DNA of 64,000 nt. Source: Panopea generosa (lineage: Eukaryota; Mollusca; Bivalvia; Adapedonta; Hiatellidae). Of this stretch, positions 21,311 to 51,420 are shown piece after piece. The stretch spans positions 47,985,228-48,049,227 of the forward strand of contig CM055901.1 of the NCBI GenBank assembly GCA_029582155.1, given 5' to 3'. Below the pieces are notes generated by a model. That model searched no databases. It was not told the origin of the DNA and saw only the letters and a list, made by a program, of their open reading frames with translations. Made by a program: the position numbers and the translations under genes. The number at the start of each line of letters is the position of its first letter. The first letter of the stretch is position 1.

Positions 21311-21365
21311 CTAAAAAGTTACATCACTTACAAGTTATAGCCAAGTTTATTTAAAAATAACACAA

Positions 21366-22478
21366 AGTTACTAAGTGTTGAAAGGTAGTGTAGGTATATA
21401 AGTTACTTAGTGTTGAAAGGTAGTGTAGGTATATAAATTACTTACTGGTGAAAGGTAGTGTAGGTATATTAGTTACTTAGTGTTGAAAGGTAGTGTAGGT
21501 ATATAAGTTACTTTGGGTTGAAAGGTAGTGTAGGTATATAAGTTACTTAGTGGTGAAAGGGAGTGTAGGTATATAAGTTACTTAGTGGTGAAAGGGAGTG
21601 TAGGTATATAAGTTACTTAGTGGTGAAAGGGAGTGTAGGTATATAAGTTACTTAGTGTTGAAAGGTAGTGTAGGTATATAAGTTACTTTGGGTTGAAAGG
21701 TAGTGTAGGTATATAAGTTACTTAGTGTTGAAAGGGAGTGTAGGTATATAAGTTACTTAGTGTTGAAAGGGAGTGTAGGTATATAAGTTACTTAGTGTTG
21801 AAAGGTAGTGTAGGTATATAAGTTACTTTGGGTTGAAAGGTAGTGTAGGTATATAAGTTACTTAGTGTTGAAAGGGAGTGTAGATATATAAGTTACTTAG
21901 TGTTGAAGGGTAGTGTAGGTATATAAGTTACTAAGTGTTGAAAGGTAGTGTAGGTATATAAGTTACTTAGTGGTGAAAGGGAGTGTAGGTATATAAGTTA
22001 CTTAGTGTTGAAAGGTAGTGTAGGTATATAAGTTACTTAGTGTTGAAAGGGAGTGTAGGTATATAAGTTACTTAGTGTTGAAAGGGAGTGTAGGTATATA
22101 AGTTACTTAGTGTTGAAAGGTAGTGTAGGTATATAAGTTACTTAGTGTTGAAAGGTAGTGTAGGTATATAAGTTACTTAGTGGTGAAAGGGAGTGTAGGT
22201 ATATAAGTTACTTAGTGGTGAAAGGGAGTGTAGGTATATAAGTTACTTAGTGTTGAAAGGTAGTGTAGGTATATAAGTTACTTAGTGTTGAAAGGTAGTG
22301 TAGGTATATAAGTTACTTAGTGTTGAAAGGGAGTGTAGGTATATAAGTTACTTAGTGGTGAAAGGGAGTGTAGGTATATAAGTTACTTAGTGGTGAAAGG
22401 TAGTGTAGGTATATAAGTTACTTAGTGTTGAAAGGGAGTGTAGGTATATAAGTTACTTAGTGGTGAAAGGGAGTGTAC
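21366..22478 (+). repeat. 35-bp minisatellite array
   Basis: About 32 copies of 'agttacttagtgttgaaagg' + 'tagtgtaggtatata' at an exact 35-bp spacing. Two variable positions (tgttg/tggtg and tagtg/gagtg) plus a rarer 'ctttgggttg' form recur in blocks, for example a repeated run around 21600-21870, indicating multi-unit duplication. The array ends abruptly in a SINE. Confidence 0.95.
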
Positions 22479-23004: not shown

Positions 23005-23102
23005 TAATTTTTAATATATTTTATTTTATACATATATTTTAATTATATATTGTAATAATTTTTTCTGTCACACTGCTTTCAACATAAAATAATTTCATAC
23101 AA

Positions 23103-23792
23103 TTCAATTCCAGATGATGATATTTCATATATATTTGGCAATGATGTTGACTACCCGTCTGACAATTTTTCGACTCCAAGAAAATCTAAAGATGAAAATT
23201 ATAATCGTTTTGGTTTGTCACTAATTGAGTTATGTTGTATGTACGATGTTCATACTTTAAATGGCCGTCTATTTAGTGATTTGGATGGTAATTTTACATG
23301 TTTTGCCAACAATGGGGCAAGCATTGTTGACTATATGATAGCTTCATCCAGCTTATTTAAGTTTATTACTGATTTTAAAATTGAGGATAAGGATTACTCT
23401 TTACATTTCCCCCTTCATTGTCAGTTTTGTTTTAAATCTTGTTCATATAACCAGTCCCTTAATAATATTGATAGTTCAAATTTGCGGACTTGGCAAAAAT
23501 ATGAATGGAAAGAGGAGTTAAAAGATGATTTTTATGTTAAGTTTTGTGATAATTTCCATTCCTTTAATGAAATAATAAGTAACCGTAATGATCCTTCTCT
23601 CAGTTCATATATACCTGATTTTACTGATGTTTTTAAAAAGGCCGGTGATAATATGAAATTAAAGTCTAATTGTAAACAATACAGTTCAACCCAACCTTCC
23701 TGGTGGGATCATGATTGTAATTCTGCTAAAGTTGACAAATCACGAGCACTACGATATTTTAGAATTACAAATGATAGAAAAGACCTTATTAC
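23103..23792 (+). pseudogene. LINE 1 endonuclease (C-terminal part) and linker
   Basis: Translation from about 23105 runs into SLIELCCMYDVHTLNGR, GNFTCFANNGASIVDYMIAS and DKDYSLHFPLH. These match the second half of an APE-type endonuclease that nicks target DNA: the FT....SxxDYxx.S strand and the terminal SDH motif. Here the motif position reads SLH, so the catalytic Asp appears lost. The N-terminal half with the Asn and Glu residues is absent. The linker continues to RALRYFRITNDRKDL and is then broken by the hAT element; the frame at 23215-23943 ends with about 50 residues of transposon sequence. Confidence 0.85.
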
Positions 23793-24779
23793 CAGGCCTT
23801 CTAAAATTGCCGGTTTTTCGGTTTTTGGACCGATTTCTGAAGTTCAAAACCGGTTTTCGTTTCAAAGTTTAATAAAAAATCGGTCCAGATATTTTCAAAG
23901 TTCAATAAAAAATCGGTCCAGATATTTTCTATCGGTTGTATAAAATCTCATAAATTGCTCTTACCATGCCATACTGACCTGGGAAATACGCCTTGCGGCA
24001 ATATAATTTGACCCAATAAACCGTTTGTTTTGTCACCTGCTGTGCGAAATGATGTCAATTTCGACTAATCCATTGACAGTATTAGGGGAGTTTTTCGGAA
24101 GAGTCTATCGCTATGTAGCACGCCTTCGATGTGTGATCAGTGACCCATAGCGTTCTGTCGGTTCATCAAAAGACTGTGTTTGCGTTCGTATATTTCTTTG
24201 ATATACCGCTAGCCAAAGCTGGGACGGTCGGACCGAATATTGTTTGCGTCATTAAAATATTTGATAAAACGTGCGGTGTTACTTGTTTGTTTCATTTTTT
24301 AAAAAATATAATTTTAATTATAAAATTAATGACATTAATTAATGAAAGTAATAAAAGCCGGACCGATTTTGTTTTTGATGTGGGACAGGTTCTGAATGAT
24401 TTATTTTGGTGGTTGAACAGTTACATTGGTTTCCACGGTGATTATTTCACGCAGCTTCCGAAACTTGCAACACTTCCGGTTCGATCGAACATTTTTAATA
24501 TGATGAAAATTATTCAGTAAAGCGGAAACATAATGTCAGTCATTAAAATGTACACATTGTGATAAAGTATGTTTTAAATAATACACAAATAAACTTGAAA
24601 TCGTTTCCTATTAATAAATAAATGGAGAAATACACGATGCAGCTGACATGGTGGGTGGGGTATGCATACATGTAATGGCATAATGTAAGGCAATTTTAGA
24701 GATTTTTTATAAATAAGTGCGATTCTTACGGTAGTAAAAAACCTGGACCGATTTGCATTATGGAATTTTAGAAGGCCTG
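23793..24779 (+). mobile_element. hAT-like non-autonomous element, copy 2
   Basis: 987 bp with the same 16-bp termini as copy 1 (CAGGCCTTCTAAAATT at 23793-23808; AATTTTAGAAGGCCTG at 24764-24779). It is flanked by an exact 8-bp duplication CTTATTAC (23785-23792 and 24780-24787), again nTnnnnAn. It is inverted relative to copy 1 and similar along its length. It lies inside LINE 1 coding sequence, so it is younger than that LINE. A 126-codon frame within it (24140-24520) shows no transposase motif. Confidence 0.95.
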
Positions 24780-24787
24780 CTTATTAC

Positions 24788-25788
24788 ATATAAAACAAAA
24801 AGGAATCATTTTAAATCTATTTGTCTGAACAAAAAGGCTCTATTAGCTAAGAAAAAACGGAACGAATTAGTTAGTTCTTGAAAAAATTCTTAAGTGTTTT
24901 GAAAAACATTAAAAGGAAATTGTAATAAGCAAAATAATGATATTACAGAAAAAGTGGCACGATTATTTTAAAAGTTTATTTATTTCAAGAGAAAATGACG
25001 ATGATAAGCATAACGATAATATCTTTGAAAATACACATTACGATTCTAGCAGCCTAAACGAACCTATATATAATCAAGAAATAATCGATAGTATACGTCA
25101 TTTAAAATCTAACCGTTCTGGAGGCCCTGACGGAGTATGTATAGAAATGTATAAGTATACACTTAATGACATATTGCCGTTTTTAAATCAACTTTTTAAT
25201 GAAATATTTGATTCAGGTTCGTTTCCTGAAAATTGGAGCGAAAGCATTATAACACCATTACATAAAAAAGGTCCAGTAAATGACCCAAATAACTATCGAG
25301 GCATTTCACTTATCGATTCCCTATGTAAAATATTCTGTCAAATATTAAGTAATAAATTAACTAAATGGTGCGATACTTTTGATGTCATTGATGAGTCACA
25401 GGCAGGATTTAGGAAAAACTATACCACTATAGATAACATTTTTACTTTAATGGCTTTAGGACAAAAGTATCTTTCTAAGAGAAAAGGACATTTTTATTGT
25501 ATATTTGTTGATTTTGCTAAAGCATTTGATAGCATTCAACACCAAAAACTATGGAATGCTTTTACAAGAAAATGTGTCGATGGAAAGTTCTTAATAATTT
25601 TACAGTCTATGTATAGCAAATTAAAATCATGTGTTAAGGTTAATAATGGATTAACTGAGTTTTTCCCATGTAACATTGGAACCAGGCAAGGCTGTGTGGC
25701 CAGCCCCATAATCTTTTCTATGTTTATAAATGATTTATATCATTTCTACATTCTAAATGTGATCGTGGTATATTTGTTTCTGATGATA
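24788..25788 (+). pseudogene. LINE 1 linker and reverse transcriptase, motifs before the active-site loop
   Basis: After the hAT element the frame resumes with YKTKRNHFKSICLNKKALLA, meets stops near 24880-24925, then is open from 24937. It shows HLKSNRSGGPDGVCIEMYK, NYRGISLIDSLCKIF, ESQAGFRKNYTT, IFVDFAKAFDSIQ (with a catalytic Asp, about 25507) and GTRQGCVASPIIFSMFINDL. These are successive RT motifs of a target-primed reverse transcriptase. A one-base deletion near 25742-25752 shifts the frame shortly before the piggyBac-like insertion. Confidence 0.92.
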
Positions 25789-25792
25789 TTAA

Positions 25793-26461
25793 CCCTTTGC
25801 TCCATATAGGTTTTACCTTATCAGCTATCACAGGTCAATACAGTTGATCAGTATCTGATAATCAATACCCAATAGGTAACTGATAAGATTGCATGCACTA
25901 TCTCCATGCAGCTTATTGGAAAAATGTTCAAGTTTGACACCTCTGTTAATTAACTCCTTTTTACAGTGTGAAATACTGATTTTATAGTTATGGTGTAAAT
26001 GTGAAGTTTTTGGAGAATTAATTTCTCTTTCTGGTGATGTAATTTTTTTAAATATAGGACAGTTGGGTGTGAAGTAAGAAAAAAAAAAATGGCAAAAATA
26101 TATTTATTTATGGTAATATACCATATATATCTATGACTAATTCATGTAAATAAACAGTGTACAACTTAATAAATAAATTAACATTCATAACAACTCATTT
26201 ACATTATACAGAATCCAGTTACTGCCCCCCCCCCCCCCCCCTCTCCCTATTCATTTTTTTAATTATTATTACCACCCCTTTCCTGATTTATATTGGAAAA
26301 GTATTTTTCTAGCCTTATACCCCCACCCGACTTATTTACATTATGCAGAATCCAGAGTTTTAAAACTTTGTTTATAAAAAATAAATTTGAAAACATGTTT
26401 CCAACCAATCACCCCCATAAATCCATCCACTACACTACTAAATTTACAGCTGTCGAGTCCA

Positions 26462-26519
<58 letters not shown>

Positions 26520-27626
26520 CACCACCCCTGACCTCGCCACTTCCAATTTACTTTTTGTATTGTTCAAACTTGTAAAGACCATCCTTACTTGTCATACCAT
26601 CTTTATTTCCAACTGATTAGTCTAAAAGTTTTATTTATTCTGTTATTTATTTTGTTTCTACTGCATTCCAGTAGAAAGTGAGAATAAACAAATAGCGGAC
26701 AATTTGTAACGCGTTTGTTTTGCCTGTTTGAACCAGTTATTTATTGACAAAAATTGATAAATCGTTACTTATAAAAAGCTTCATAAAACACACCCTCAAA
26801 TCAGAATAATTGCTCATCCATTCACGAGTCTGATCCTCGTCTCCAGAGAGAGAGAGCTATCATCAGATGAATCAATATCAAAGTCAGAAAAATCACACTC
26901 GTCCAAGTCGCTTTCTAAAAGACGCCGAAAATCTTGAATATTTTGATAAAAAAAATTACAAAACACGGTCGCAATGAAAATTTTGATGTTCTAAAACGAA
27001 CTGGCCGATTGTTTTCATTCTCCTGGTATAATCAACTTGATCCTCTGTTCTCAGCGGGACACTTTTTAATTTTAGTTTTATTGAGATAACAATCAAAGGT
27101 TTATTACCGAAATATCACTGGCCACGTGTCATATACCACCTTCAAATATCCCAACCGACGACAGCTATCAGCTGTAAAAACAAACCAAATCTTCAAAGAT
27201 GCCGATTTTTTTATTTTGATTAGCGATGCATAAAGTAAAAACACGGTTATTTTTAGAAATATGACCTTGTTTCAACTAAATTGTTCCAGATCTCGCATAC
27301 AACTTTCGCGCGTGATCTATGGGAATGCCCTCGTTTCATTGGACGCTATTTATTGCGTTATTATTAATAGTAACCACATGGTTTTTTGGGGGGATCCACT
27401 TCCTGTAGAATTAATGTTTACAAAAAGAAAGGTCGGACATTTGTTTTGAGCGTTAATATGCAATAATTTTGAGTTTAAAAGCACACTGCGGGGAAATGCG
27501 GTATCATGGAGCAGTCGATAACTGCGGGGATTTGCGGTATTGAGGCGCACTGGATATATGCGGTCTTTTGCGGTATTGAGGCGCACTGGATAGGTGCGGT
27601 TTTTTGCGGTATTATGGAGCAAAGGG
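25793..27626 (-). mobile_element. piggyBac-like non-autonomous element in the LINE 1 RT
   Basis: Termini CCCTTTGCTCCAT (25793-25805) and ATGGAGCAAAGGG (27614-27626) are inverted repeats, flanked on both sides by TTAA (25789-25792 and 27627-27630). CCC/GGG ends plus a TTAA duplication are the hallmark of piggyBac. Length 1834 bp. The right end carries tandem subterminal repeats ('gcggtattgaggcgcactgg', 27500-27612) that could be transposase-binding sites. Internally there is a run of about 18 C (26225-26241), an A run of about 50 (26467-26517) and a transposase-like remnant on the minus strand. No intact transposase, so it needs one in trans. Confidence 0.93.
26836..26945 (-). pseudogene. Possible piggyBac transposase N-terminal remnant
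   Basis: Read on the minus strand from about 26940: FRRLLESDLDECDFSDFDID then SSDDSSLSLETRIR and a stop after about 35 codons. Ser/Asp-rich acidic N-termini are typical of piggyBac transposases, and the position inside a TTAA-flanked element makes this a reasonable leftover of its parent enzyme. The catalytic domain is deleted. Low sequence complexity limits confidence. Confidence 0.5.
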
Positions 27627-27630
27627 TTAA

Positions 27631-28853
27631 GGAGTTAGTAGCCTTAATGTTTGCTGATGATGTTTTAAGTTTCTCAGATACTGTTGTACATCTTCAAAGA
27701 CAAATTAATTATATTGAACAATTCTGTGCATCTGTTGATATGAAAATTAATCTCGATAAATCAAAAATTGTTGTTTTTAGAAATGGAGGCATCATCAAGC
27801 TTACAGAAAAGTGGACTTATTGTGGAGATACTATAGATGTTGTTAAATTTTATAAATATTTAGGTGTTTATTTCACGCCAAAATTGCTATGGTCAAAAAC
27901 GCAAGAAATGTTGGCATTGCAAAGTATTAAGTCTGTTGCCTGTATATTTAGATTTCAACGTAAATTTGGACATCTAAATTCAGTACATATGTTTAAAGTA
28001 TTTGATGCTATGGTCAAACCTATACTTTGTTATGGCTCTGAAATTTGGGGATACAAGTATGTTGAAAAAATTGAAAAAGTGCAAGTCAAATTCTGTAAAC
28101 AGTATTGTAATTTATCACAAAATACATCTGATATTCTAGCACTAGGAGAATGCGGAAGATTACCGTTATGTATAACTTATATTCCCAACTGTGTAAAATT
28201 TTGGCTAAGAATTATATGTATGGAAAACCATAGATACCCTAAACAATGTTATAAAATGCTTAAACAATTAGATGAAGCAGGCAGAAGAACTTGGGCTAGT
28301 CATATTAGAGAATTACTTTTTACATATGGATTTGGATATGCTTGGCTTGCCCAAGATGTTAGAAATGACATAAATTTTATTCAGTTATTTAAAACACGCA
28401 TTAAAGACTGCTATTTACAAAGATGGATCACAGGTCTAAACGATTCTCCTAAATCTCTGCATTATAAACATTTTATATCTCATCTGTATTCACATTGATT
28501 TATCATATATTTTAAGAAAAACGTCAAATTTTCGTTGTTAGACCCATACTTTAATGATCGATCGAAGAGTCTTTCGAAGACACTTATCAATAGATAAAAA
28601 TTTAAGATTCTGTCCTATATGTATGAAAAATAATATTTCTGTAGTCGAAGATGAGTTTCACTTCTTCTTTGAATGTAATGAGTATGAAAATTTTAGACAA
28701 ACTTTTTTCAAATCTAATTGGTTAAGAAATAGATCGCTTAACATGTATTACATAATTTTAAGCTTGAAAGATGAGAAAAGCATTGTCAGTATTGCTAGAT
28801 ATCTTTTAAATGCTTTTAAAAGAAGAAAAGAAATTCTAGATTTGCCGATTTAA
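27631..28853 (+). pseudogene. LINE 1 reverse transcriptase C-terminal half and Cys/His tail
   Basis: Resumes directly after the second TTAA with KELVALMFADDVLSFSDT; the FADD box (27650-27661) is the RT active site. It continues through the thumb (FYKYLGVYFTPKLLWSK, AMVKPILCYGSEIWGY) to 28498. After a stop and frame change, 28554-28853 gives FCPICMKNNISVVEDEFHFF then FECNEY, a CxxC...H....C tail. The continuous frame opening at 27506 begins with about 40 residues of piggyBac terminal sequence and is therefore chimeric, not a natural gene start. Confidence 0.9.
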
Positions 28854-33569: not shown

Positions 33570-34916
33570 AAATTATGCAGCTGTAACCAAGATATTGTGT
33601 TTATGAAAGACTCGCTATCTCAACTTGAAGCAGAGATTTTAATGTTAAAACAAAGTCGGTAAGCAGTATGACAAACAAATTAAGTGTGTTTCAGACTCTG
33701 TTCTTGGTGTCAAAAGTGAATGCATAGCTTATGTTAACATCACAAAACAAGGCGTATCTTAGATTCAGGAAATAATATCCCTGCTGCCTATCAATGATAT
33801 GTACTCTCTAAGGTCAGACATTAACTTGGTAAGGAAGAAACTTGGCATCATTGAGACGTATATAGACAATAATGATACAATCCTGATAACTAAATTAAAT
33901 GTGCCTTTGGTGTCCCTCCTCAACCCGCCCTCCTTATCAGATCTAGCCACTAGTGCATTAATGTCTGGTAACATGGGTGAGTTTGGGCTGACAAGTGCTC
34001 CTATTAACACTTTTGGAAGTTTGGTTATGCCATAATGAACATAGTAATAATGATATGGAAGCTAGTGTATACGAAATAACAGATAGTTTGTGAGTAAACA
34101 ATGAGATGCAATTAACCATGGAACTGATCACCACCTTGCAAACATCAACATGTACTGCTGATGAATGGGTAACAGTCCCATCAAATAAGACAGTTATAAA
34201 TGTATCAGTTCAATGTGGTGAAAGCAACTCATTTCAAAATGATAATGTTGATTATGAGTGGTTCATTTGGAGATCTACAAACTGAGCGGACTAAACGTGT
34301 TTCAGACTGCAGAGTTCCAAAGGAAACTAACAGCTCAACACATTCCAATACCAAACATACAAATACAAAGTAAGACAATGTTTCAGATTCCAGTAACCGC
34401 TATCATAGATATGGTAAAAAAAAAAAAGGATGGTCGCAAAGTGACATTTGCTGATATAGTCTCCACTATCGGAACACCGGAAGTACCACGGAAAAATGGC
34501 ATTCCGGTGAGTCACTCGGCGCCACGATACCAAGATTGATGAAGATTTTAGTGAGAACGCGAACTCGCCGATATTTCATAGGAGGGTTTTCAAACTTGAT
34601 GGCTAAAGATAAACTAAAATCGTTTATAAAACAAAAAGGTCCAAAAGTGACCATGATACGTATATTTCCAGAAAAACATACTCCTGACAGGGCCATTATT
34701 CAACTTAATGTTGAAGCAAATATCGAGTGCTATTCAATTGAGGAAAGAGGTTTTTGGCCACGCGGTGCAACTTGTAAACAGTGGTTGTCACGCAACTCAC
34801 TTGTCAAAAAACGTAAATTGGGCAAACGTCACTTTGCGGACCGATCGGGCAATTATAATGTGTGGTGTGACCCAACCCTGAGTTATGAAGATTACAATAG
34901 GTACTGTAATTTAGAT
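33570..34916 (+). pseudogene. LINE 3 ORF1 (gag-like), broken
   Basis: The start region translates as IVFMKDSLSQLEAEILMLK, resembling the coiled-coil start of CR1/Jockey-group ORF1 proteins. The end (34536-34919) gives RRYFIGGFSNLMAKDKLKSF and GFWPRGATCKQWLSRN, matching the RNA-binding domain that closes such ORF1s with a WP.G....W signature. Several stops and frame changes lie between. The intact protein would coat the element RNA. Confidence 0.65.
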
Positions 34917-35220
34917 TAATCAAGTTTACTAATCTTAAACAAATTACTCAAGGGTATAAACAAGTTGGTGTTTTTTAATACTAAGAAAATTAGTTTATTA
35001 ATATTGAACACGACTGGTGTAAGTTATAATCGTGATTGTCATTGTAATCAATTGAATTTTTGCTTGGCATACAAAGGATGTTCTTCGAGTAACTCTGACT
35101 GCTTACGTGGCTATAACTTACCTTTGTTTGATACGGTATGCAGCAGCTATAAACGGAATTACGTAATATTTACTCAAGCGTCTTTAGTTTACGTGCTTTT
35201 TTTTTTTTTAATCTGCAATC

Positions 35221-36298
35221 ATGATAAATCCCAAGAAACTAAACCTATTATCATGGAATGCAACGAATTTAATGTCTAGTAGCACTTTCCTATGCAATTC
35301 TTTGAACAGACTATTGATAAACATTTGTGGTGTTTCAGAACATTGGTTATCAGATAATAATATACATTTTATAAGTTCTTTAGACAATAATTATAAAGCA
35401 GATGTTGTTATTGACTCTAGTTTAACTGTTAAAGGTAGCAGACGAGTTGGTAAAGGTGGCGTAGCTTTGCTATGGCATATTAAATATGATAGGTTTGCAA
35501 CACCATTAACTACTGATAACGATAGAGTAGTTTGTATACAATTTCAATATGCACAGAGTAAATTTTTGTTTATATTTCAAGTGTATTTACCATGCAGTAA
35601 CCATCCCATTGAAAACTATGGGAGTTATATTGAAAGCTTTTTAATTTATGGAGTTTATATTCAGAAAAATTGTTTTGTTATATTTATGGGCGACTTCAAT
35701 GCAACCTGTTCAAAATTCCCAAGTAATAGCAGAGATCAATCATTCACACAGTTCTTGAATGATACTAATATGATCTCTGCTAATACATCGGATATGTACA
35801 CCAGTGCTTCATCATTCTTTGTATCGTACGATGGAAAGTGTGAACTGCTTACTGAATTCATCATTTTGCCAGTTGAAAAAACAGATTGTATTACTCAAAG
35901 TGTAATAGTAGATGACGATTGTCTAAATGTTTCAAGACATAGACCTATTAAATGTAGTCTGAATATGCCTTCGACTGGTTATAATGCCGATGTGTCGAAT
36001 GTAAATATTTCGCAATTATATAATATCAACTGGAAAAAAGTAAGACAAGTTGATATTACATCCTATCAAAAGATGGTCAATACATCCGAGGATTTGATAA
36101 AAGCACAAAATTGTCCGTCAACATGTCCTGCTTAAATTGATTATATGTATAAAATTTTAAGTGAGACTTGTTCTTGCTCAGCTAAGTGTTTTCGCAAGTC
36201 GAGATTTAAATACTTTTAAGTCGTATTGGAATTCAGAGTTATCTAATTTACAAAGTCATGTTAGAAAACCGGAAAGTCTGGATTCAAAATGATAGACC
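35221..36298 (+). pseudogene. LINE 3 endonuclease domain
   Basis: An open frame of 304 codons starts MINPKKLNLLSWNATNLMSS (the Asn-bearing strand) and shows GVSEHWLS (catalytic Glu), GGVALLWH and FIMGDFNAT (Asp/Asn), ending near NVSRHRPIKCSL, where the usual SDH motif has Arg in place of Asp. So an APE-type endonuclease fold is nearly complete but the final catalytic Asp is lost. After a stop at 36133 degraded linker continues (SYWNSELSNLQSHVRKPES in another frame) to the L1 insertion point. Confidence 0.88.
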
Positions 36299-36311
36299 AA
36301 GAGATCAATCA
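36299..36311. other. Target-site duplication, left copy (AAGAGATCAATCA)
   Basis: 13 bp identical to 42951-42963, on the two sides of the L1-like element. It is part of LINE 3 coding sequence, so it gives the insertion point. Confidence 0.93.
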
Positions 36312-36627
36312 GTTTTTTTTTGCCTCAGGGGTTTAAGCTGAGATGTTATAGGTTAATTCTCTGCTGACATTTTGGTGAATATAAATAGCAAAATAGTGAT
36401 AAATATCTGGAAAATAGCATCTAAATGTGTATAAAGTTTCCAGCTACCTTACTGTGAAAAAATATTTGAAAAATATTTTTTAACTTTGGAGATAATAGTG
36501 AAAAACAAAATTTCAAAAATAAATCCTTTGTTTGATCCTGGACACTTTTCTAGTCAAGAAACACTGTGAAACCATCCCTTGGATTTAAGGATTAAAATTT
36601 TGTGTTTTTCTCACCTGTGTTGTAATC

Positions 36628-37536
36628 ATGAACAAAGGAGATATCATTAAGCCAGCCAAAGCCATTGTTACGGCTAAAATGAACACTGCCTCAGGGAGTA
36701 AACCACCAGCTTCTAAGAGAACAATATCTGAGGTGTCACCCAATGTGAGCATGGAGGAAATTACAGTTATTTCTCACCAACTTGAAAGCCTAACAGAAGA
36801 TGTAAAAAATATGAGGGACGATGTCAAAAATGTGATAAAAAGAAATGAAATGGAATTGTTTATAAAGGACACAGTAACAAAGATCATGAATGAAATCTAT
36901 GAAAACATGGAATTAACAATCAATATGAAAGTAGAGGAAAAAACAAAAGAGGTAAATGAAAGGATGAAAAATGTTCAATGTGAAAATGAGAACTTGAAAA
37001 AAGAACTTGTGGTGATGAAAACAGAACTCACTAGAGTAAAAAACTCATGTTACAATGCAGAAATGCAGTCAAGGGAGGCTCTGTTGAAAAGTAATTACAA
37101 CGAGCAATATTCCCGCAAGAATAACATCAAGATAATGGATGTTAAACCATCAGAAAAAGAAACAATAGAAGATCTGACATCAAAGGTATGTGATTTAGTC
37201 AATAACAAGGGACTTACTTTGGATCCTTCCAACATAGTTGCAATACATCGCATACCAGGAAAAATGAACTGTGTCAAACCAGTATTGGTTAAACTTAAAA
37301 ACAACCATGAAAAAACTAAGATCATGAAAAAACGATCTGAATTCAAAAGAGATGGCAACCGCCTAGTGGATGACGTAACAAAACCAAATGCCAAATTGAT
37401 CCAGACATTGATGGAAAGAGATGACGTAGAACAGGCATGGTTCTTCAATGGTTCTGTATTCGCAAAATTGAGGGCTACAGATAAACGCTACAAAGTTGAT
37501 CTATTTGATGATATCAGCCAAATCCTGAAAAACTAA
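36628..37536 (+). CDS. L1-like ORF1 protein (RNA-binding, coiled coil)
   Basis: 302 residues, beginning at the first ATG after the 5' UTR. Residues 1-40 are basic and Ser/Pro-rich. Residues about 45-150 are rich in Glu/Lys/Met with heptad spacing, a probable coiled coil for trimer formation. Then comes YNEQYSRKNNIKIMDVKPSE (about 153-172), the entry to an RRM-like domain, followed by VAIHRIPGKMNCVKPVLVKL and a C-terminal domain with SVFAKLRATDKRYKVDL. This is the layout of L1-type ORF1 proteins, which bind the element RNA into a particle with ORF2. No stop or frameshift. It shares the element with ORF2 1.2 kb downstream. An RNA-polymerase II transcript would serve both. Confidence 0.88.
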   Translation: MNKGDIIKPAKAIVTAKMNTASGSKPPASKRTISEVSPNVSMEEITVISHQLESLTEDVKNMRDDVKNVIKRNEMELFIKDTVTKIMNEIYENMELTINMKVEEKTKEVNERMKNVQCENENLKKELVVMKTELTRVKNSCYNAEMQSREALLKSNYNEQYSRKNNIKIMDVKPSEKETIEDLTSKVCDLVNNKGLTLDPSNIVAIHRIPGKMNCVKPVLVKLKNNHEKTKIMKKRSEFKRDGNRLVDDVTKPNAKLIQTLMERDDVEQAWFFNGSVFAKLRATDKRYKVDLFDDISQILKN

Positions 37537-38740
37537 GTGTATTAACTGAACTCAGAAACACAGTATACTATTGGAATACTTTTTTGGATTAATGCTTTTT
37601 ATTTAATGCCTTATACCTATTTCCAAATTATGTGATACTTGTGCACAGTGATACCCAAACACTAAGGATTTAAAACTGTCTCCAAAGGGATTTACTATGA
37701 AACTATTTGTGTGTCAGTGTTTTTAATGTATCGATTCCAGTTTGCATTTATCATGCATGTGTTCCTCCTTTTTTCATTTATTGAAGAAATTTCTCTGTGT
37801 GCTAGAATTCCCACATTCTATTATAATGTGAATTATCATTTTTATTCAATTACGGATTACAAAATTAAACAAAGATGCAACTTAGAACTCGGTGAAACTT
37901 TTCAATGTACCACTGCAAGCATCTATACATATTGTGACTTTCTGGATGGATTATTAACATTTCCTTTTTTGACTACACCGCATTTATATATGCAGTGTCA
38001 TGTCACTGGTTATATGTATGCATAGGTAGATTGTTGTGTGTTTGGTGTGAGTGGCCTTGTGTTATTTTTTATTTTTCTCCCCCTCAATGTATTATCCCAC
38101 AGTTCCCTACCAGAAACAGTAAAATAAATATTTATAGGCATATATATTTATACAAATTTATATAAATCTACATGTTGGATACCTGGTTTACGATAACCTT
38201 CCAAACTTACCTTCAAACAGAAAGTTTAGGTTTTCAATAATGATTGATAATTACTTTCAATAAGGCTTATTATTCATTGTGGAATTCTCTTAAGTCTGCT
38301 TCAGAGAAACACTATTAATATGAATATGGTAAACAATTTGACATTCAGACCTAAACCGGAAACGTAATCAGCTTCCTCTTTGGACAGGCTTAAATAACGC
38401 GACTCTTAACAAAAAACAAGTGTCCAGTAGGGCCTTATACCAATAATTTAATAAATTACAGTATTAACTAAAAGATGATCATGAAAAATATTTTATTCAA
38501 ATGTATAATAACATTATTAGAAATTTACACAAATTAGAAAATTACTATTATGAAAACGACCAATTATTTCCAAATAAAAAACACTAAAATGTACAGCTAT
38601 TTTTAGCTTGAAAAGTTAACAGTAAAATTGCTTTACTCAATGGACTGTTTTTCAAATTTGTTCTTATTAGGTTCATACATAAAATTACACATGTTCTCCA
38701 TAAGCAGGTCTTTGTTATATAATACACATTCTATAGATAA
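37537..38740 (+). other. Unusually long inter-ORF region of the L1-like element
   Basis: 1.2 kb separates ORF1 from ORF2. It holds an unrecognised 104-codon frame (37711-38025, Phe/Tyr/Cys-rich with a hydrophobic start) and AT-rich sequence. It could be natural spacer, a remnant of an additional ORF or an older insertion. No terminal repeats were seen in it. Confidence 0.5.
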
Positions 38741-38953
38741 TTATGGAGTTTAAAATACTGTCTCAATTGCCAGGGGCTAGGTTCTGTAGAAAAAAGACTA
38801 GACGTTTTTAATTATTTAAAAGCCAAAAATTGTCATATTTATTGTCTGCAGGACATACATTCTGCACAACACACTAAAAAATTCATTCAGACACAGTGGG
38901 GTAACAATAATTGCCTATTTAGCTCAGTTAATTCTAATAAAAGAGGGGTAGCA

Positions 38954-41900
38954 GTGTTATTTAATAAAAACCTTGACCTTACAATTCATAAACACTTATC
39001 TGACCCTGAGGGGAATTTCATTATAATAGACATAACAGTTGATAATCACAGGTTCAACCTCATTAACTTGTATGGGCCAAATATTGACTCACCAGCATTT
39101 TTTAATAATATTATGTCAAAAGCACGATTCATAAATAATAATAACCCTTATATTCTCTGCGGAGATTTCAATGTTGTACAAGACTACAACCTAGATAACT
39201 GTAATTATAAAAAAGAAAATAATAAAAAAGCTCATGATTTAATTCTTGAAATTATGCAGGATTTTAATCTAATCGATCCTTTTAGAGAAAATAATCCATT
39301 GTTAAGAAGATATACATGGAGGAAAAAAACACCGTTACAACAAGCCAGGCTTGACTATTTTCTTTTATCAGAAAGTTTACATGCTTCAGTAAACAAATGT
39401 TCTATTGAACCTAGTTATAGGTCAGATCACTCAATGGTAATTCTTAATATGTCTTTTACAAATTTTATTCCTGGGCGTCCGTTATGGAAACACAATAATT
39501 CTCTTTTAACCGATCTAGATTATTTAAAGATCATTAATAATAAAATATCAGAAATTAAATGTCAATATGCATTGCCTGTATACAACCTTGAAAACATTAA
39601 TTTGATTCCCGATAACCAATTACAGTTCACTATAGATGACCAGCTATTCCTCGAAGTTTTATTAATGGAAATAAGGGGGAAGTCAATTTCATATTCATGC
39701 TATAAAAAGAAAAAAAATGACCAATTAGAAAAAGATTTAATAATCGAAATAGAAAAACAAGAAAATAAGGTCACAAATGAAAATATAGATTATATTGAAA
39801 ATCTAAAAATGAATTTAAAAAATATACGTAAACACAAAATGCAAGGTCATATGATACGCTCAAGAGCACAAATAATAGAAAATGACGAAAAACCAACAAA
39901 CTATTTCTGTAACTTAGAAACTTTTAAATCTTTAAATAAAATTATACCTAAATTGGAAAAATCAGATGGTAGCATCATAACAGACCAAAAGGAAATATTA
40001 AATGAAGCAAAAGGTTTTTATGAAAATCTTTACTCTAGTAAAGATTACAATTTAATTGATATTAATTTAGAACAGGAATTTATTAATTATGACATTCCTA
40101 AACTTAGTACAGAAGAAAGCAATTTGCTCGAAGGACTAATCACTTATGAACAGGCATCGGCATCTCTAAAAGCCATGGCTAATAACCGTTCACCTGGCAC
40201 ATCAGGATTCAATGCAGATTTCTTTAAAGTGTTTTGGAAACAATTAGGTCATTTTATTGTTAGGTCAATTAATTACGGATTTAAAAAAGGAGAGTTATCC
40301 ATAACACAAAAAGAAGGTATTATAACATGTATCCCTAAAGAAAATAAATCTAGGTATAATATGAAAAATTACAGGCCTATTTCTTTATTAAATTGCATCT
40401 ATAAAATAGCCTCAGGTGTTATAGCAAACCGAATTAAATCAACTTTACATAAATTAATACATAAAGATCAGACAGGTTTTATTTCAGGCAGATATTTAGG
40501 TGAAAATACAAGATTAGTATACGATATTATGCATTGTGCAGAACAAAACAATTTGAAAGGATTACTGCTTTTGATAGATTTTGAAAAGGCGTTTGACTCA
40601 ATATCTTGGGTTTTTATTAATAAAGTTTTAAAATTTTTTGGCTTTGGTAAATCTATCATATCTTGGGTAAACTTATTTTTTAACAACGCAAAGCTTGCAG
40701 TAAACCAAGGTGGTAACTTATCATCATTCTTTAATATAGGCCGTGGTTGCCGACAAGGAGACTCGTTGTCACCATATTTATTCATTTTATGTGCTGAAAT
40801 TCTTGCAATTAAAATAAGAAACAACAAAAATATAAAAGGTATCAAAATAGGCAATACAGAATATAAAATATCACAATATGCAGATGATACATCAGCTTTT
40901 TTAGACGGTTCACAACAGTCTTTAAATGAAACACTATCTGAATTATCAAGATATGCAGAATATTCCGGTCTCAATGTTAACTTTGACAAAACACAAGTTA
41001 TATGGATAGGGCTGAAAAAATACAGTACTGAAACTATCAAAACAAAATGGAAACTAACATGGGGAATAACAAACTTTAAACTGTTAGGAATACACTTTGA
41101 CGTAGATCTGGATAAAATAATATCAAAAAATTACCAAGAAAAAATATCAAAAATAGAAACCTTAATCAAATCTTGGAAACGGAGATATCTTACTCCAATA
41201 GGGAAAATAACGGTTGTCAAATCCCTTCTAATTCCAATATTAAATCACCTATTTATGTCCCTTCCAAACCCAAACCTCAATACTATAAAACACATTAATA
41301 GTCTATTCTACAGTTTTATCTGGAATGGACCATCTAAAATTAAACAGTCGGTTCTTGTTAAAGAGTATAGCCAAGGAGGACTTAAGATGATAAACATTAA
41401 TGCATTCATAGCAGCTTTAAAAGTCACCTGGATAAGACGATTAATATTAAATGATGGAAAATGGGCTAATATAACGCATATACCATTAAAAAAATTGATA
41501 GATTCCGGGGACTCTTATATTTTGAAAATAATGAGAACTATCTCAAATCCGTTTTGGTTAGATGTACTCAAGTCACTACACACATTAATAAAAATAAAGA
41601 AACCTCAAAATATGGATAATATACTACAAACACCCATCTTTTTTAATGAAAATATACGTATTGGAGGAAAACCATTTTTTTACTCAAAATGGTACGATAA
41701 TGGAGTTACATTTATCAACGATTTCGTAAACAATACTGGGGACTTTTATTCAGAATCGGAATTTAAAAATATATTTAATGTAAAAACAAATTTTATACAA
41801 TACAATGGAGTAGTAAATGCTATAAAATCGTTTGTACATAAAAACAATATGACTTTAAATAAAAAATGTCTAAGACCAATACAACCTCCAACATATAATT

Positions 41901-42511
41901 ATATTACAAAATCTAAAAAAGGTTGTCAAGACATATACTCAATACTTAATAATAACAATGATGAACCTACATCAAAGTTAAAATGGCAACAGATCTACGT
42001 CATAGATGAAGTAACATGGGACAAAATATTTGCGTCGCCTTTTAATAACAATCTTAGTGCACAACAACAATGGTTTCAAACCAGAATAAATCATAGGATT
42101 CTACCATGTAAGAAATATCTACATACATTAAAAATAATTAACAGTCCTTTATGTACATCCTGTAACCAGGAAGAGACCCTCATCCACATGTTTTGGACAT
42201 GTCCAACAACACAAACATTCCTTAATAAACTCAAAACTTGGTTCTCTACTATTAATGTAAAATGTTCATTTTATGAAAAATGTTTTATATTTAATTATAA
42301 TATAGAAAACAACATGTCACAAACAGAAATCCAAATTATTCTTGAAATAAAATATTACATATTTTCTACAAGACGACTGAACGGAACACTTTCCACTGTT
42401 GCTTTTAAAAACAGACTCAAATATACACTTTTATCACTCAAAGAAATAGCAATAAAAAACGGAAAAATTGATACCTTTAAAGCACAGTGGCATAAACTTC
42501 TGAATATTTAA
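38954..42511 (+). CDS. L1-like ORF2: endonuclease and reverse transcriptase
   Basis: 1185 residues from the ATG at 38954, but the same frame is open from 38741 and encodes the start of the endonuclease (CLNCQGLGSVEKRLD, CHIYCLQDIH) without an in-frame ATG. An ATG at 38743 lies one base out of frame. From 38954 one sees GDFNVV (D71), RLDYFLLS and SDH (157-159) of the APE nuclease. RT follows with RSPGTSGFNADFFKVFW, NYRPISLLNCIYKI, LLLIDFEKAFDS (D542), GCRQGDSLSPYLF and YADD (642-645). A C-terminal CTSCNQEETLIHMFWTC (from 1067) completes the L1-type plan. The protein nicks target DNA and copies the element RNA there. All catalytic motifs seen are intact apart from Asp replacing the usual Glu in LQDIH. 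Confidence 0.92.
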   Translation: MLFNKNLDLTIHKHLSDPEGNFIIIDITVDNHRFNLINLYGPNIDSPAFFNNIMSKARFINNNNPYILCGDFNVVQDYNLDNCNYKKENNKKAHDLILEIMQDFNLIDPFRENNPLLRRYTWRKKTPLQQARLDYFLLSESLHASVNKCSIEPSYRSDHSMVILNMSFTNFIPGRPLWKHNNSLLTDLDYLKIINNKISEIKCQYALPVYNLENINLIPDNQLQFTIDDQLFLEVLLMEIRGKSISYSCYKKKKNDQLEKDLIIEIEKQENKVTNENIDYIENLKMNLKNIRKHKMQGHMIRSRAQIIENDEKPTNYFCNLETFKSLNKIIPKLEKSDGSIITDQKEILNEAKGFYENLYSSKDYNLIDINLEQEFINYDIPKLSTEESNLLEGLITYEQASASLKAMANNRSPGTSGFNADFFKVFWKQLGHFIVRSINYGFKKGELSITQKEGIITCIPKENKSRYNMKNYRPISLLNCIYKIASGVIANRIKSTLHKLIHKDQTGFISGRYLGENTRLVYDIMHCAEQNNLKGLLLLIDFEKAFDSISWVFINKVLKFFGFGKSIISWVNLFFNNAKLAVNQGGNLSSFFNIGRGCRQGDSLSPYLFILCAEILAIKIRNNKNIKGIKIGNTEYKISQYADDTSAFLDGSQQSLNETLSELSRYAEYSGLNVNFDKTQVIWIGLKKYSTETIKTKWKLTWGITNFKLLGIHFDVDLDKIISKNYQEKISKIETLIKSWKRRYLTPIGKITVVKSLLIPILNHLFMSLPNPNLNTIKHINSLFYSFIWNGPSKIKQSVLVKEYSQGGLKMININAFIAALKVTWIRRLILNDGKWANITHIPLKKLIDSGDSYILKIMRTISNPFWLDVLKSLHTLIKIKKPQNMDNILQTPIFFNENIRIGGKPFFYSKWYDNGVTFINDFVNNTGDFYSESEFKNIFNVKTNFIQYNGVVNAIKSFVHKNNMTLNKKCLRPIQPPTYNYITKSKKGCQDIYSILNNNNDEPTSKLKWQQIYVIDEVTWDKIFASPFNNNLSAQQQWFQTRINHRILPCKKYLHTLKIINSPLCTSCNQEETLIHMFWTCPTTQTFLNKLKTWFSTINVKCSFYEKCFIFNYNIENNMSQTEIQIILEIKYYIFSTRRLNGTLSTVAFKNRLKYTLLSLKEIAIKNGKIDTFKAQWHKLLNI

Positions 42512-42906
42512 ATTAATACGACATATAAAAGGATAACTTTATCCTGGTAATGAAAATATGTAAAATAATCTTTAATAACAATGTTAAGACACTCGCAGAA
42601 TCTGGACCCTGGCACATGACAATTTTCAATTATATTAGTGGATTACTACCACAAGACCGTATATGGAGAACATTGTGTAATATATTTAACCTAGTCAAAG
42701 TATATCAAATTTACCATTTATTTCCCACTAGAAAAACAATGATATCTAGAAAATTGTAACAAAATAAAAAAAAATCTACACCTTTTTAAATTGGAGAAAG
42801 ACTGAGAGAAAGACATTTGTTTAATAGTGAGAAAGATAATGATAATTTGTTATTTGATTACAACTATGCTATACTATGTATTTATAATGTAAATGAAAAG
42901 TGGAAT

Positions 42907-42950
<44 letters not shown>
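42512..42950 (+). other. L1-like 3' UTR and poly(A) tail
   Basis: About 400 bases of AT-rich 3' UTR, then an uninterrupted run of about 39 A. No AATAAA immediately before the tail, though 'gtggaataaatg' (42900-42911) contains AATAAA within 15 bases of it. Confidence 0.85.
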
Positions 42951-42955
<5 letters not shown>

Positions 42956-42963
42956 ATCAATCA
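42951..42963. other. Target-site duplication, right copy (AAGAGATCAATCA)
   Basis: Identical to 36299-36311; LINE 3 sequence resumes after it. Confidence 0.93.
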
Positions 42964-43260
42964 CATTATTTTTATAAAAGTTATGAAACAGCAAAATATA
43001 ATTTCAGAAAAAAACAGGTATTTTGCCAATGAGTATTTAAAAAATCTTGATAAAGAAATTGACACAACTGCTGAACTTGACAAAGAACAATTTTGGAAAT
43101 TAGAGAAATCGTAAAGAAAATGGTCATCAAGTGGAGCAGGCGCTGAAATAAAATTCAATGGCATAATGTATAGGGATAATGACAGTATTACAGAGCAATG
43201 AAAACAATATTTTGAATCGTCAATTGATATTAAATATGATAATATTTGAAAAGCTTCTGT
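42964..43260 (+). pseudogene. LINE 3 linker before the reverse transcriptase
   Basis: Across several frames: DTTAELDKEQFWKLEKS, then IKFNGIMYRDNDSITEQ and KQYFESSIDIKYD. This matches the segment in CR1/Jockey-group ORF2 between endonuclease and RT (D....FWKL......G..Y.DP..I...W..YF). Stops interrupt it. It joins the sequence left of 36299 once the L1 is removed. Confidence 0.75.
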
Positions 43261-43329
43261 TGACGAAAAAAAACAACAACTCTGTTATATATCGCAGTCG
43301 TGCTTGAAAAATCATCTTAGATTACAATG

Positions 43330-43690
43330 TTGAAAACTCATTAGAAAATTTGCAGAAATTAAAAATACTAACAATGTATTTGACAGAGTATATCTTAGAA
43401 AAACAAAAAGTATGTACAAAATAGCAGTCTATAACCCCAATATACATAAATAAAATATTTGATATCAGACAAACAAATAAAAATGCAACTGTAACACGGT
43501 CAAATTCTTCAAATAACTTCATACTACCTAAACCGAAAAAAGAAATATTTAAACAAAGTTTAAAATACTCTGGTCCAATAATATGGAATAATCTACCAGT
43601 AAATATTAAAGAAAAAAACTTCAGTTAAGGTATTTCAAAGCAATTTAATCAAATGGATGAAAAATGTGTAATCCTTAATGTTTTCTGTGC
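43330..43690 (+). pseudogene. L2-like LINE C-terminal fragment
   Basis: About 43450-43660 translates to RSNSSNNFILPKPKKEIFKQ, then SLKYSGPIIWNNLPVNIKEK, the very common LINE C-terminus (P......S..Y.GP..WN.LP..I). Stops lie before it. It is a different LINE from LINE 3 and sits where LINE 3 RT motifs 1-2 should be, so it is probably another nested insertion. The sequence around 44840-44945 ('ataacagagggccgcatgga', 'ctataaataaagtcactta') looks like the 3' end of such an element. Confidence 0.6.
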
Positions 43691-45000
43691 ATCTGTGTCC
43701 AGAATCTTGTAAACAGTTACATACCGCAATGCTCTTTAAATAAATGTTTTCTATTAATATAATGCTTTCAACCCATTTTGAATATAATTCCAATCCTGAT
43801 GATTATATTTAATTTGAGACTCCTCAAGTGAATGAAAAAACAAAAACAAAAATAAATATACACTGCAAAGTAAACGCATAAGAATACATCACCTCTGTCC
43901 TGGTTGACATCAAATTCTCTAAAACTAATATCCAATAATATCGTAACGGCTTTTGTTTCCATTATCAAATGAACTCTCTAACATTAGTTGGTTTATTGTA
44001 AAAAGATGAAATATTTTGGGGTGATTAATTAAACGGCCGCCTTTTAACTCTCGATTTTGACAAACAAAAAATCAATAATTCCAGGAAATACCCACACAGT
44101 GTAGCTGCTGACGTCATTTAGTTTTTGCCTACACGATTGTTTTTAAAAAATGTGTCAATATTTACGAAGGTCATACAAATCCACGCTCAGTGATAGAGAA
44201 TTTGAATTTGGAACGTTTTAAACGACTTTTACGTGCAAGGTTTGTGTATTTGTCTCACAATCGTCTGCTTCTGAACTTCATCTACATGTACGTGTTTTTA
44301 TTTCATTTTTCCTGTCAAATAAATTGGTCTGTCGAAATTTTTGTCAACAACTAGCATTAATGTTCGGTAAATCAGGGTTGTATTCGATGGTAAACTATAC
44401 ATCTCATTGTTTCTCAAAACAACTTATGGTCTGATTGTGAAGCCCGGTTCAATCGCCGAAACAAAGAAATTTATAAAACAATAAACCGAGGAAAACAGCT
44501 AGGACTAGATTTAACATTTGTTTTCGTTGTGTTTTATTATTAAAATTAACGTGGAACCGTTGTGAACGGCATTTAAGTTTGTATTTTGTTAAACCGACCA
44601 TCAAAATGTCGATGCTTCTTAGGTAAAAGTAGTCAGGTTCAAGGGTTTTATCGAAAGATAAGTCTTTAAAAAATTGACGTTGTCCAATGAAAATGCTTTA
44701 AATATATAATATGATAATGAGATTGGAATTATTTTTGACATGTTTTATGAGAGAATGTGTATGAAGAGTCTTGTGTGTGAAGAAGAAATTTGTTGTTTTT
44801 AGCATTGTCTGCACTGAATATTTTATGTACATGTTTATTTCATTTTTGTAAATCTTGTAAATAACAGAGGGCCGCATGGAAGATTAGTTTTAAACTAAAT
44901 GTGTTACCTTCTATAAATAAAGTCACTTATCTCATCTTAACTAGATTTTGTATTGATGACGTCATTAAGGTGTCAAAAACTTCTTTCTTATTTAAGTAAC
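43691..45000. other. Unassigned insert DNA and possible L2-like 3' end
   Basis: 43691-44840 contains no recognised frame; there is a GC-richer piece near 44030-44130. 44840-44945 resembles an L2/Crack-type 3' terminus. The border with LINE 3 is near 45000. Confidence 0.4.
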
Positions 45001-45004
45001 CAAC

Positions 45005-46645
45005 ATGGGATTTCAGGAAGGACTCAGATGTTTGATGACTTCCTTTGCACTAAAAGAATGTATTTTATATGGCAGGGAGCATAAGAGCAAGGTTTTTGTT
45101 AGTTTTTTAGATGCTCATCAAGCTTTTGATAGGATGTGTCATAACTTATGCTTAAATTGTTTGATAGCCGTAATACAAACTATATTTTTATGTCATTCTT
45201 TAATATGTATCATAATATGCAAAGCTTTGTGCAAACCCAAGGGTCAGTTTCTGAGTGGTTCAATGTACTTCAAGGAACAAGACAAGGGGTTTAAAGCTCA
45301 CCAATATTATATCTTGTTTTCATTGATGGTCTGATAAAAGACATAGAAAGTAGCGATCTTGGGTTGTGTATTTTCAACTTGAAGGTTGGTACCCCTACCG
45401 TTGCAGATGATATGGTTCTTGTATTGTATTCAATGTCAGGTTTAGACAAAATGCTAGATATTTGCTACAAATATTCCACAAAATGGAGATATGATAATAA
45501 TCAATTAAAATGTGCTATTGTTGTTTTTAATGAATCCAAACATAACTTTGATAAAAACTGCAGATCATAATGGAAACTAAGATCTAGTAACATTATTCAT
45601 GAAACAGAAAATTATACACATCTAGGAATTATATGTGACAAATACTTGTGTATTAGTGATCATGTTCGACCGTCAAATAATAAGTTATGTAGACTTTTTT
45701 TAAGTTTTATTAAGAGTGGCTTACATCCCTATTAAGTCTTAATCCCTTGACATCATTAACAATATATAAGTCAATCGTTATACCAATTCCCTATATGGTT
45801 GTGAATTATGGAATTCATTTACCAAATCAAATATTATACAACTAGAATGAGGACATAGATTCTGTATAAAATTTATCCAAAATATCCCACAATATGCAAA
45901 TACGAATTTTGCTGTAACTCTATTGGTAAACTTCACTTGAAATGGAAATCGACTACAGGAAGCTTCAATTCTTTGGTCAATTATGCAGACTCCCGAATAA
46001 GTATATTGCTAAGCAGTTATTTGTTAATCGTCTGTTTAGATATCTTAGTGATGATAAACAAACATTAGGTTTTATTCCTGATATCTATAGAATATTAACC
46101 AAGTATATATAATTATTTGGTTAGTTATTCTAAAAAGGCAATATTTCCATCCAAGTATGCATGGAAATATATTCTTAGACAAAAAGTGCTAATACATTAC
46201 TCAGTTACAATGCTAATGAGGTTAGGTGACAAGACGGGTCCATATGTCATGAATATGTTTAACATAAATAGACCTTACTTCATAATTATGGCAATTAAGT
46301 AGGAAAAATCAGTATGTAAACCACAATGTTTTACAGCAGTCTAACTTCTAAGTAAATTGCAATAGTTTACAGCTGTACAGCCATGTAACAAATGTAATAC
46401 GCTTGTAGATAATTTAGTACTACATATTGTTCATTTATGTATTGCAAACACTGTCGAAAGAAATAAGCTTTGGGACGCAGTTATTGACTTGTGGTCTTCA
46501 GGCCTTTAATTCATTTATTAAAAAAACGCCTAAATATCAGATTTCTGCATTGCTTTCCGGGCTTAATGAATATTTATCTGACATTGAACCAATTGAAGAT
46601 ATATTATTGCTCAATATTGGGATAATTCACAGTATGTTAAAGTAA
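45005..46645 (+). pseudogene. LINE 3 reverse transcriptase and C-terminus, degraded
   Basis: MGFQEGLRCLMTSFALKECI then SKVFVSFLDAHQAFDRMCHN (an Asp-bearing RT motif at about 45105) begin the fragment. Next come VADDMVLVLYS (45394-45425), where the YADD box reads VADD, HLGIICDKYL, LQFFGQLCRLPNKYIAKQLF (about 45970) and a zinc-knuckle-like CNKCNTLVDNLVLHIVHLC (about 46384-46440). The ORF is broken by many frameshifts and stops, far more than LINE 1 or the L1-like element. The N-terminal RT motifs are missing, replaced by the L2-like insert. Confidence 0.85.
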
Positions 46646-50120: not shown

Positions 50121-51420
50121 GAACAATATGTGGCTCTGCACTTGACAGAACTCATTTGCAAATCATTGAACCAGAACAAAATGACAATATGTGCATATCC
50201 TAGCTAGTTTTACAAAATTAAAAAACAACAGAGGTTGTAGTGAAATTGCATCATGAAGACAATATGCACATTTCCACTTGGTAATCATGCATCCTAGCAA
50301 GTTTCATAAAATTCCAACCAGAGGTTGTAGAGAAATAGGGCGGAGAATAGTTTAGTCACAGACAGAATGAAAGGGTCACAACTCCGTGAAAAATCATCGT
50401 ACTGGAACACAAACATAGCATATTTCATAAAACTCCAACCTGAGGTTATAGAGAAATAGTGCGGACAATAATTTGGTCACAGGCGCAATGAAAGGGCCAT
50501 AACTCCGTGAAAATCATCGAACCAGAACACAAATACAATATGCGCATCTCCACTTGGTAGTGATGCATCCTAGCAAGTTTCATAAAATTTCAATATGGGG
50601 TTGTAGAGAAATAGCGCGGACAAGAATTTGGTCACAGACAAAATTAATGGGCCATAACTCCATGAAAAATCATTGAACCGAAACATAAAGACAATATGCG
50701 CATCTGCACTTGGTAATGATGCATCCTAGCAAGTTTCATAAAATTCCAACCTGAGGTTGTAGAGAAATAGTACAGACAAGAATTTGGTCACAGATTCAAT
50801 TAAAGGGCCATAACTCCGTGAAAAATCATCGAACCGGAATACAAAGATATTATGCGCATGTCCACTTGGTAATGATGTATCCTAGCAAGTTTCATAAAAT
50901 TCCAACATTTGGTTGTAGAGAAATAGCACAGACAAGAATTTGGTCACAGACAGAATCAAAGGGCCATAACTCCGTGAAAAATCATTGAACCGGAACACAA
51001 AGATATTATGCACATCTGCACTTGGTAATGATGCATCCTAGCAAGTTTCATAAAGTTCCAACCTGAGGTTGTAGAGAAACAGCTCAGACAAAAATTTGGT
51101 CACAGACTCAATTAAAGGGCCACAACTCCGTGAAAAATCATTGAACCGGAACACAAAGATTTTATGCACAGCTCCACTTGGTAGTGATGCATCCTAGCAA
51201 GTTTCATCAAATTCCAACATTGGGTTGTAGAGATATAGCCCGGACAAGAATTTGGTCACAAGACAGAATCAAAGGGCCAGTTCTCTGTGAAAAATCATCA
51301 AACCGGAACAAAAAGATATTATGCACATATCCACTTGGTAGTGATGCATCCTAGCAAGTTTCATAAAAATTCAACCAGAGGTTGTAGAGAAATAGCCTGG
51401 ACAAGAATTTGGTGACATAC
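50121..51420 (+). repeat. 156-bp tandem repeat array
   Basis: Eight or so units. The phrase 'gcatcctagcaagtttcata' recurs at 50565, 50721, 50877 (variant), 51033, 51189 and 51346, a spacing of 156 bp. The unit also contains 'ggttgtagagaaatagcgcg', 'gacaagaatttggtcacaga' and 'aagggccataactccgtgaa'. The first two units (50170-50460) have a deletion. Similar 'aagggccataactc' units are dispersed in bivalve DNA; some molluscan Helitron-like elements carry central arrays of about 160 bp, but no Helitron ends were identified here. Confidence 0.92.

Follow-up and report, generated by a model that had tools for sequence, protein, structure and literature searches.

Retrotransposons of the L1 superfamily are known outside mammals. 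L1-Tx1 elements have been reported from 35 mollusc species, with a superfamily mean of 5,851 bp in that set, and the mollusc entries for long interspersed nuclear elements (LINEs) in RepBase include 14 L1-Tx1, mostly from oyster (PMC10294476). The Xenopus Tx1L group belongs to the same superfamily, its Tx group being target-specific (PMC3747384), and Tx-like L1s of marine animals feature in proposed horizontal transfers (PMC6036668). Across 31 mammalian species, the spacer between the two L1 open reading frames (ORFs) measures 18-580 bp, with a median of 63; megabat L1 lineage 1 has a 445-bp intergenic region, and in tissue culture retrotransposition fell about 25.7-fold when a long megabat region replaced its human counterpart (PMC4072516). 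We describe an element of this kind at positions 36312 to about 42950 of a 64,000-nucleotide stretch of the bivalve Panopea generosa (assembly GCA_029582155.1, contig CM055901.1, positions 47,985,228 to 48,049,227 of the forward strand), hereafter the window. The element is very probably a full-length, recent copy of an L1-superfamily retrotransposon without long terminal repeats, non-autonomous as assembled after the loss of 2 bp from ORF2, and also present as an inverted duplicate. Its kind is already known and the copy is not categorically new; the part worth following is a long spacer between its ORFs.

The insertion and its reading frames

The element, whose features all lie on the plus strand, sits between two copies of a 13-bp target site duplication (TSD), AAGAGATCAATCA, at 36299-36311 and 42951-42963, identical at 13 of 13 positions. 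It ends in a poly(A) tail of 39 A without interruption (42914-42952), the last two of which may belong to the TSD. Both the duplication and the tail had been called in an original prediction made from the letters of the window, and both were borne out. The 5' untranslated region (UTR; 36312-36627) opens with one G and then a T run, and the 3' UTR (42512-42913) ends in AATAAATGTT.

For comparison we used 20 other copies fetched from the genome with a 5' query, a procedure by which full-length copies are over-represented; with the window copy they make 21. The window copy diverges by 0.39% from the nearest distinct insertion, L045, and by 0.35% from its own duplicate, L046. The exact TSD, the long A tail and this low divergence support a recent insertion. 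The tail itself is not exceptional, as other copies also carry runs of A, from 26 to about 40 long. Across copies the element opens on a stretch of T that varies between 2 and about 11 and is followed by GCC, and copies of a sister family, described below, start near TTAGCC or ATGCC. We considered a 3' stem-loop serving stringent recognition and rejected it: the 3' UTR fold is not unusually structured (z-score 0.41), and the 3' UTRs of the two families share no similarity.

ORF1 (36628-37536) is intact over 302 codons, as had been predicted, and encodes a protein of the L1 ORF1p type with a coiled coil and an RNA recognition motif (RRM); its C-terminal part is poorly resolved. Searches of Pfam and PDB with the ORF1 sequence gave no useful lead. 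By structure comparison, in which a second aligner was also used, the best match of the predicted ORF1 structure was human L1 ORF1p, and the model contains the coiled coil and RRM expected of that protein. A helix and strands are modelled at residues 253-291, where confidence is low and which the L1 rows of the second aligner do not reach; a single-sequence fold of ORF1 gave helices only, with a confidence score (pLDDT) of 63.9.

The ORF2 body (38741-42511) is a stop-to-stop frame of 1,256 codons that carries an APE-type endonuclease, a reverse transcriptase and a C-x2-C-x7-H-x4-C motif; the longest open run in 300 first-order Markov randomisations of the element had a median of 94 and a maximum of 179 codons. 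Pfam identified RVT_1 (1.9e-36) and Exo_endo_phos (1.5e-12), with zf-RVT (0.0011; 20.1 bits vs 27.5) and Exo_endo_phos_2 (6.1e-06) falling under the curated cut-offs. Against solved structures, ORF2 matched human L1 ORF2p at E 1.3e-89 and the best R2 protein at 2e-15, and the alignment to the human L1 endonuclease begins at residue 7. The residues of the Cys/His motif (C1138, C1141, H1149 and C1154) are invariant in all four sequences compared, from the window copy, L049, and L065 and L066 of the sister family. The element thus shows the traits of the L1 superfamily: an N-terminal APE-type endonuclease, a reverse transcriptase nearer to L1 than to R2 (among solved structures only) and a C-terminal Cys/His motif. 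Together with the ORF1 model, the ORF2p match supports the predicted assignment to L1-type LINEs.

Like mammalian and human L1, the element has two ORFs, an ORF1p with coiled coil and RRM, an ORF2p with APE endonuclease, reverse transcriptase and Cys/His motif, a poly(A) end and TSDs. It differs from human L1 in an endonuclease motif, which reads LQDIH here and QETH in the human protein, placing Asp where human L1 has Glu. That Glu is catalytic in the human endonuclease. We rejected the Asp as damage private to the window copy, since it is found in the same four sequences of both families. In kind and size the element resembles the L1-Tx1 elements described from molluscs, bivalves included, a comparison made from published descriptions (PMC10294476). 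No relatives were found in viral contigs.

Comparison with other copies exposed a break in ORF2. In the family, ORF2 starts at an ATG that corresponds to 38743-38745, has an A at -3 and a G at +4, and survives in 16 of the 20 fetched copies. In the window copy this ATG is in a different frame from the ORF2 body and opens only 22 codons. Seven codons past it the window copy is short of two bases (a private deletion at 38762-38763); all 20 other copies have bases in both columns. Because this loss puts the start codon out of frame with the remainder of ORF2, the window copy would not be competent as assembled, with ORF1 open and ORF2 frameshifted. Thus the prediction of a complete, possibly competent element held as to full length but not as to competence of the assembled copy, and the predicted ORF2, though open over its 1,256 codons with endonuclease, reverse transcriptase and Cys/His motifs, is not intact as assembled. 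The first in-frame ATG of the ORF2 body lies at 39113; starting there would yield 1,132 amino acids and cost about 124 endonuclease codons. L048 and L049 have an ORF2 open throughout, whose protein from the family ATG also counts 1,256 codons. The agreement with the predicted count is a coincidence, because the window count begins at a stop and those of L048 and L049 at the ATG. A stop-to-stop open frame is therefore not to be taken for an intact gene, a caution that the sister-copy comparison brought out at once.

The copy might yet be competent as it stands if translation of ORF2 began at a non-AUG codon or involved a frameshift, and the frame is indeed open from 39113 back to 38741, with endonuclease residues inside. 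No such device is needed in the other copies, which all have the two bases and mostly keep the ATG, and the context of that ATG, given above, also speaks against it. We regard this possibility as highly improbable.

Related copies and the inverted duplicate

Counts of open frames, start sites and 5' ends cover all 21 copies. A common start point, within 10 bp, is shared by 16 of the 21; ORF1 is open at full length in eight, ORF2 in two and both in one. TSDs of 9-16 bp flank 9 of the 17 copies for which both ends were read, representing 8 distinct insertions at 8 different sites (for L053, the 25-mer reported by the script is a local tandem repeat, and the TSD is 15 bp by eye). The footprint of target-primed reverse transcription, a poly(A) end beside a TSD of variable length, was seen in these 8 distinct insertions. 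The original prediction had called the element L1/Tx1-like; the 8 different target sites show no sign of Tx1-type site specificity, in contrast to the Tx group that includes Xenopus Tx1L, which is described as target-specific (PMC3747384).

L047 and L048 lie on different contigs at different target sites and diverge by 0.09%, a near-identity that we read as a sign of very recent movement. The wider idea of present or recent activity of this kind of element in the genome was supported by the other copies, through this pair and the open frames in relatives, and the family looks recently active. It would be a natural case of recent L1-type activity. The first kilobase of the element matched at least 47 stretches, with 40 of 74 candidates scored and pieces of copies and the sister family included; for the last kilobase, 40 of at least 463 candidates were scored, and all were at least 95% identical.

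The sister family is 65.9% identical to this one in ORF2 and 58.9% in ORF1. Both frames are open in two of its three fetched copies, and those two are 99.48% identical and occupy different target sites, as judged by eye. Between the families, nonsynonymous divergence (dN) in ORF2 is 0.248 at a synonymous divergence (dS) of 2.3, near saturation; in ORF1, dN is 0.323 and dS is beyond saturation. These values indicate that both proteins were under selection.

Taken from the family as a whole, the mechanism would be as follows. The family would make an ORF1p with coiled coil and RRM and an ORF2p with endonuclease, reverse transcriptase and Cys/His motif, and its copies would insert through target-primed reverse transcription that begins at the poly(A) end, with no strict preference for a site. 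The window copy would have landed inside or next to the broken ORF2 of another LINE, and two bases at ORF2 codons 7-8 would have been lost after insertion, leaving a copy that is not autonomous as assembled.

The insertion is present a second time in the assembly. L046 lies inverted about 156 kb away on the same contig, with matching TSD and flanks. The window locus (34216-45251) aligns with this duplicate (L091, L046 and L090; G000:C8:48181500-48192500) over 11,046 bp at 98.77% identity. Two 901-bp probes mirroring positions of about 63,500 and 20,500 found no match, though the mirror position may drift, and the inverted duplication spans at least 11 kb but seems to be bounded. Substitutions between window and duplicate number 49 of 2,082 positions in the left flank (2.35%), 23 of 6,619 in the element (0.35%) and 16 of 2,277 in the right flank. 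The divergence changes sharply at the 5' end of the element, and there are 0 substitutions in 36500-38500.

L046 keeps the two ORF2 bases that the window copy lacks; it has other small deletions, and its frames are broken too. It is thus conceivable that the 2-bp deletion is an error of assembly or polishing and that the true sequence is that of an intact, possibly competent copy, as originally predicted. In favour of this, the duplicate of the insertion is free of the deletion, and the small deletions that fill the duplicate, typical of uncorrected long reads, point to errors nearby. The window copy itself carries at least 21 private substitutions but one private indel, so that this stretch does not have an indel-prone look, and a 3-bp gap at 37984 is not private but common to the window copy and L046. 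We consider an error at this site unlikely. The comparison of private substitutions drew on 13 of the 20 fetched copies and the window copy; L056, L058, L059, L060, L062, L063 and L064, which are diverged or fragmented, were set aside. For L055, L057 and L061 it took in bases lying outside their truncated 5' ends, which makes private counts in the 5' UTR unreliable and the 21 of the window copy a lower bound.

Several observations weigh against our main reading of the locus. Within the element, counting those in poly(A) and T runs, the duplicate shows 12 gap events and the window copy 1, and over all 11 kb, 27 are missing in the duplicate and 5 in the window copy; this excess resembles indel error, which makes any single indel here doubtful. 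Both the frameshift and the duplicate come from a single assembly. Private substitutions are also uneven (window copy 21, duplicate 2), and simple duplication does not give such unevenness, nor the drop in divergence. Conversion between the two inverted copies could produce this pattern, as could uneven polishing or a combination of the two. Finally, among the 17 copies read at both ends, 8 have no TSD or only a doubtful 8-mer. We also asked whether the private substitutions came by conversion from another copy and rejected this: at 15 of the 21 positions none of the other readable copies (6 to 24 at each) has the window base, and at the remaining 6 it occurs in one to five other copies, mostly diverged.

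The spacer between ORF1 and ORF2

From the ORF1 stop to the ORF2 start codon, the window copy has a non-coding spacer of 1,206 bp with 27 ATGs (37537-38742). The spacer measures 1,348 bp in L049, while the sister family has spacers of 1,184 and 1,182 bp, so that its length is known from four copies in two families (window, L049, L065 and L066), three of them with both ORFs open. It is the most unusual feature of the element and had been overlooked in the original prediction. At 1.18-1.35 kb it lies well outside the 18-580 bp given for mammalian L1s in the survey cited above, and in the literature listings searched, with passages of PMC4072516, PMC2951350, PMC4176376 and PMC7140322 (RepBase and most subscription papers being outside that scope), we found no spacer above 1 kb described for an L1-type element. 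The nearest parallel is megabat L1 lineage 1, where a long intergenic region was likewise retained in a lineage once active (PMC4072516); the present spacer exceeds twice that length, occurs in two families, and belongs to an animal that also has L1-unlike LINEs.

The length of the spacer is kept between the families, but its sequence is not. Spacer identity between them is 46.4%, no higher than in 20 shuffles (mean 46.3%, maximum 48.2%), whereas the 5' UTRs reach 62.4%, above the 43.0-52.8% of 10 shuffles. The strongest short blastn hit between the spacers is 20 bp, on opposite strands, at E 0.005. Within the family the spacer drifts at least as fast as ORF2 third positions in all seven diverged copies measured. 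Many near copies carry about 144 bp of extra spacer between 42-bp direct repeats (window 37883-37924), a segment missing from the window copy, L045, L046 and the diverged L056.

Such turnover would also be expected if the spacer were the remnant of an ancient nested insertion or of a third ORF now dead, and not a feature of the element; both the shuffle-level likeness between families and the rate of drift fit that origin. However, the long spacer recurs in four copies of two families, three with both ORFs open. Terminal inverted repeats were sought and rejected, with none of the 20 listed inverted-repeat pairs having both arms within the spacer, and coding log-odds over its last 240 bp, the part scored, favoured no frame consistently. 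On balance this origin strikes us as quite improbable. Tentatively, and with more doubt than confidence, we suggest instead that in an active L1 lineage a spacer of about 1.2 kb, containing about 30 ATGs, has persisted despite complete sequence turnover between two families, and that this lineage expresses ORF2 in a different way. Short-range reinitiation could then hardly reach ORF2, and a promoter of its own, splicing or internal ribosome entry would be needed. A spacer whose length is kept and whose sequence is not poses a testable question: how the second protein of an L1 arises across more than 1 kb.

The target site and the rest of the window

The element apparently sits in or beside the broken ORF2 of another LINE, a placement partly read by eye. 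The left part of this apparent host (35212-36311, plus strand) comprises an endonuclease-like ORF at 35212-36135, with Pfam matches of 1.4e-05 and 0.00015 that are both under the curated cut-offs, and the adjoining bases. When the flanks are joined across the empty site, two frames are open, of 56 and 65 codons, so openness alone is no proof of the host reading frame. The 12-mer AGAGATCAATCA of the target site has a third copy in the host LINE at 35731-35742, and RDQS is coded in both places; this third copy is probably there by chance. By eye, the sister-family copy L065 (1-602 and the right flank) also lies inside another L1-like ORF2.

The other elements in the window had been predicted to be broken. 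Among stop-to-stop ORFs of at least 150 codons, six besides the two of the element were scanned in Pfam, and the other reverse transcriptase and endonuclease pieces found are fragments. Rfam and tRNA scans of the 64-kb window returned no match. A second, broken LINE at 23059-28498 has reverse transcriptase pieces in separate ORFs (24913-25809 and 27479-28498) and contains a run of 51 A at 26467-26517. Tandem arrays occupy 6766-8733 (51-bp unit), 18573-19102 (58 bp), 21365-22477 (35 bp), 50416-51417 (156 bp) and 59009-61409 (91 bp).

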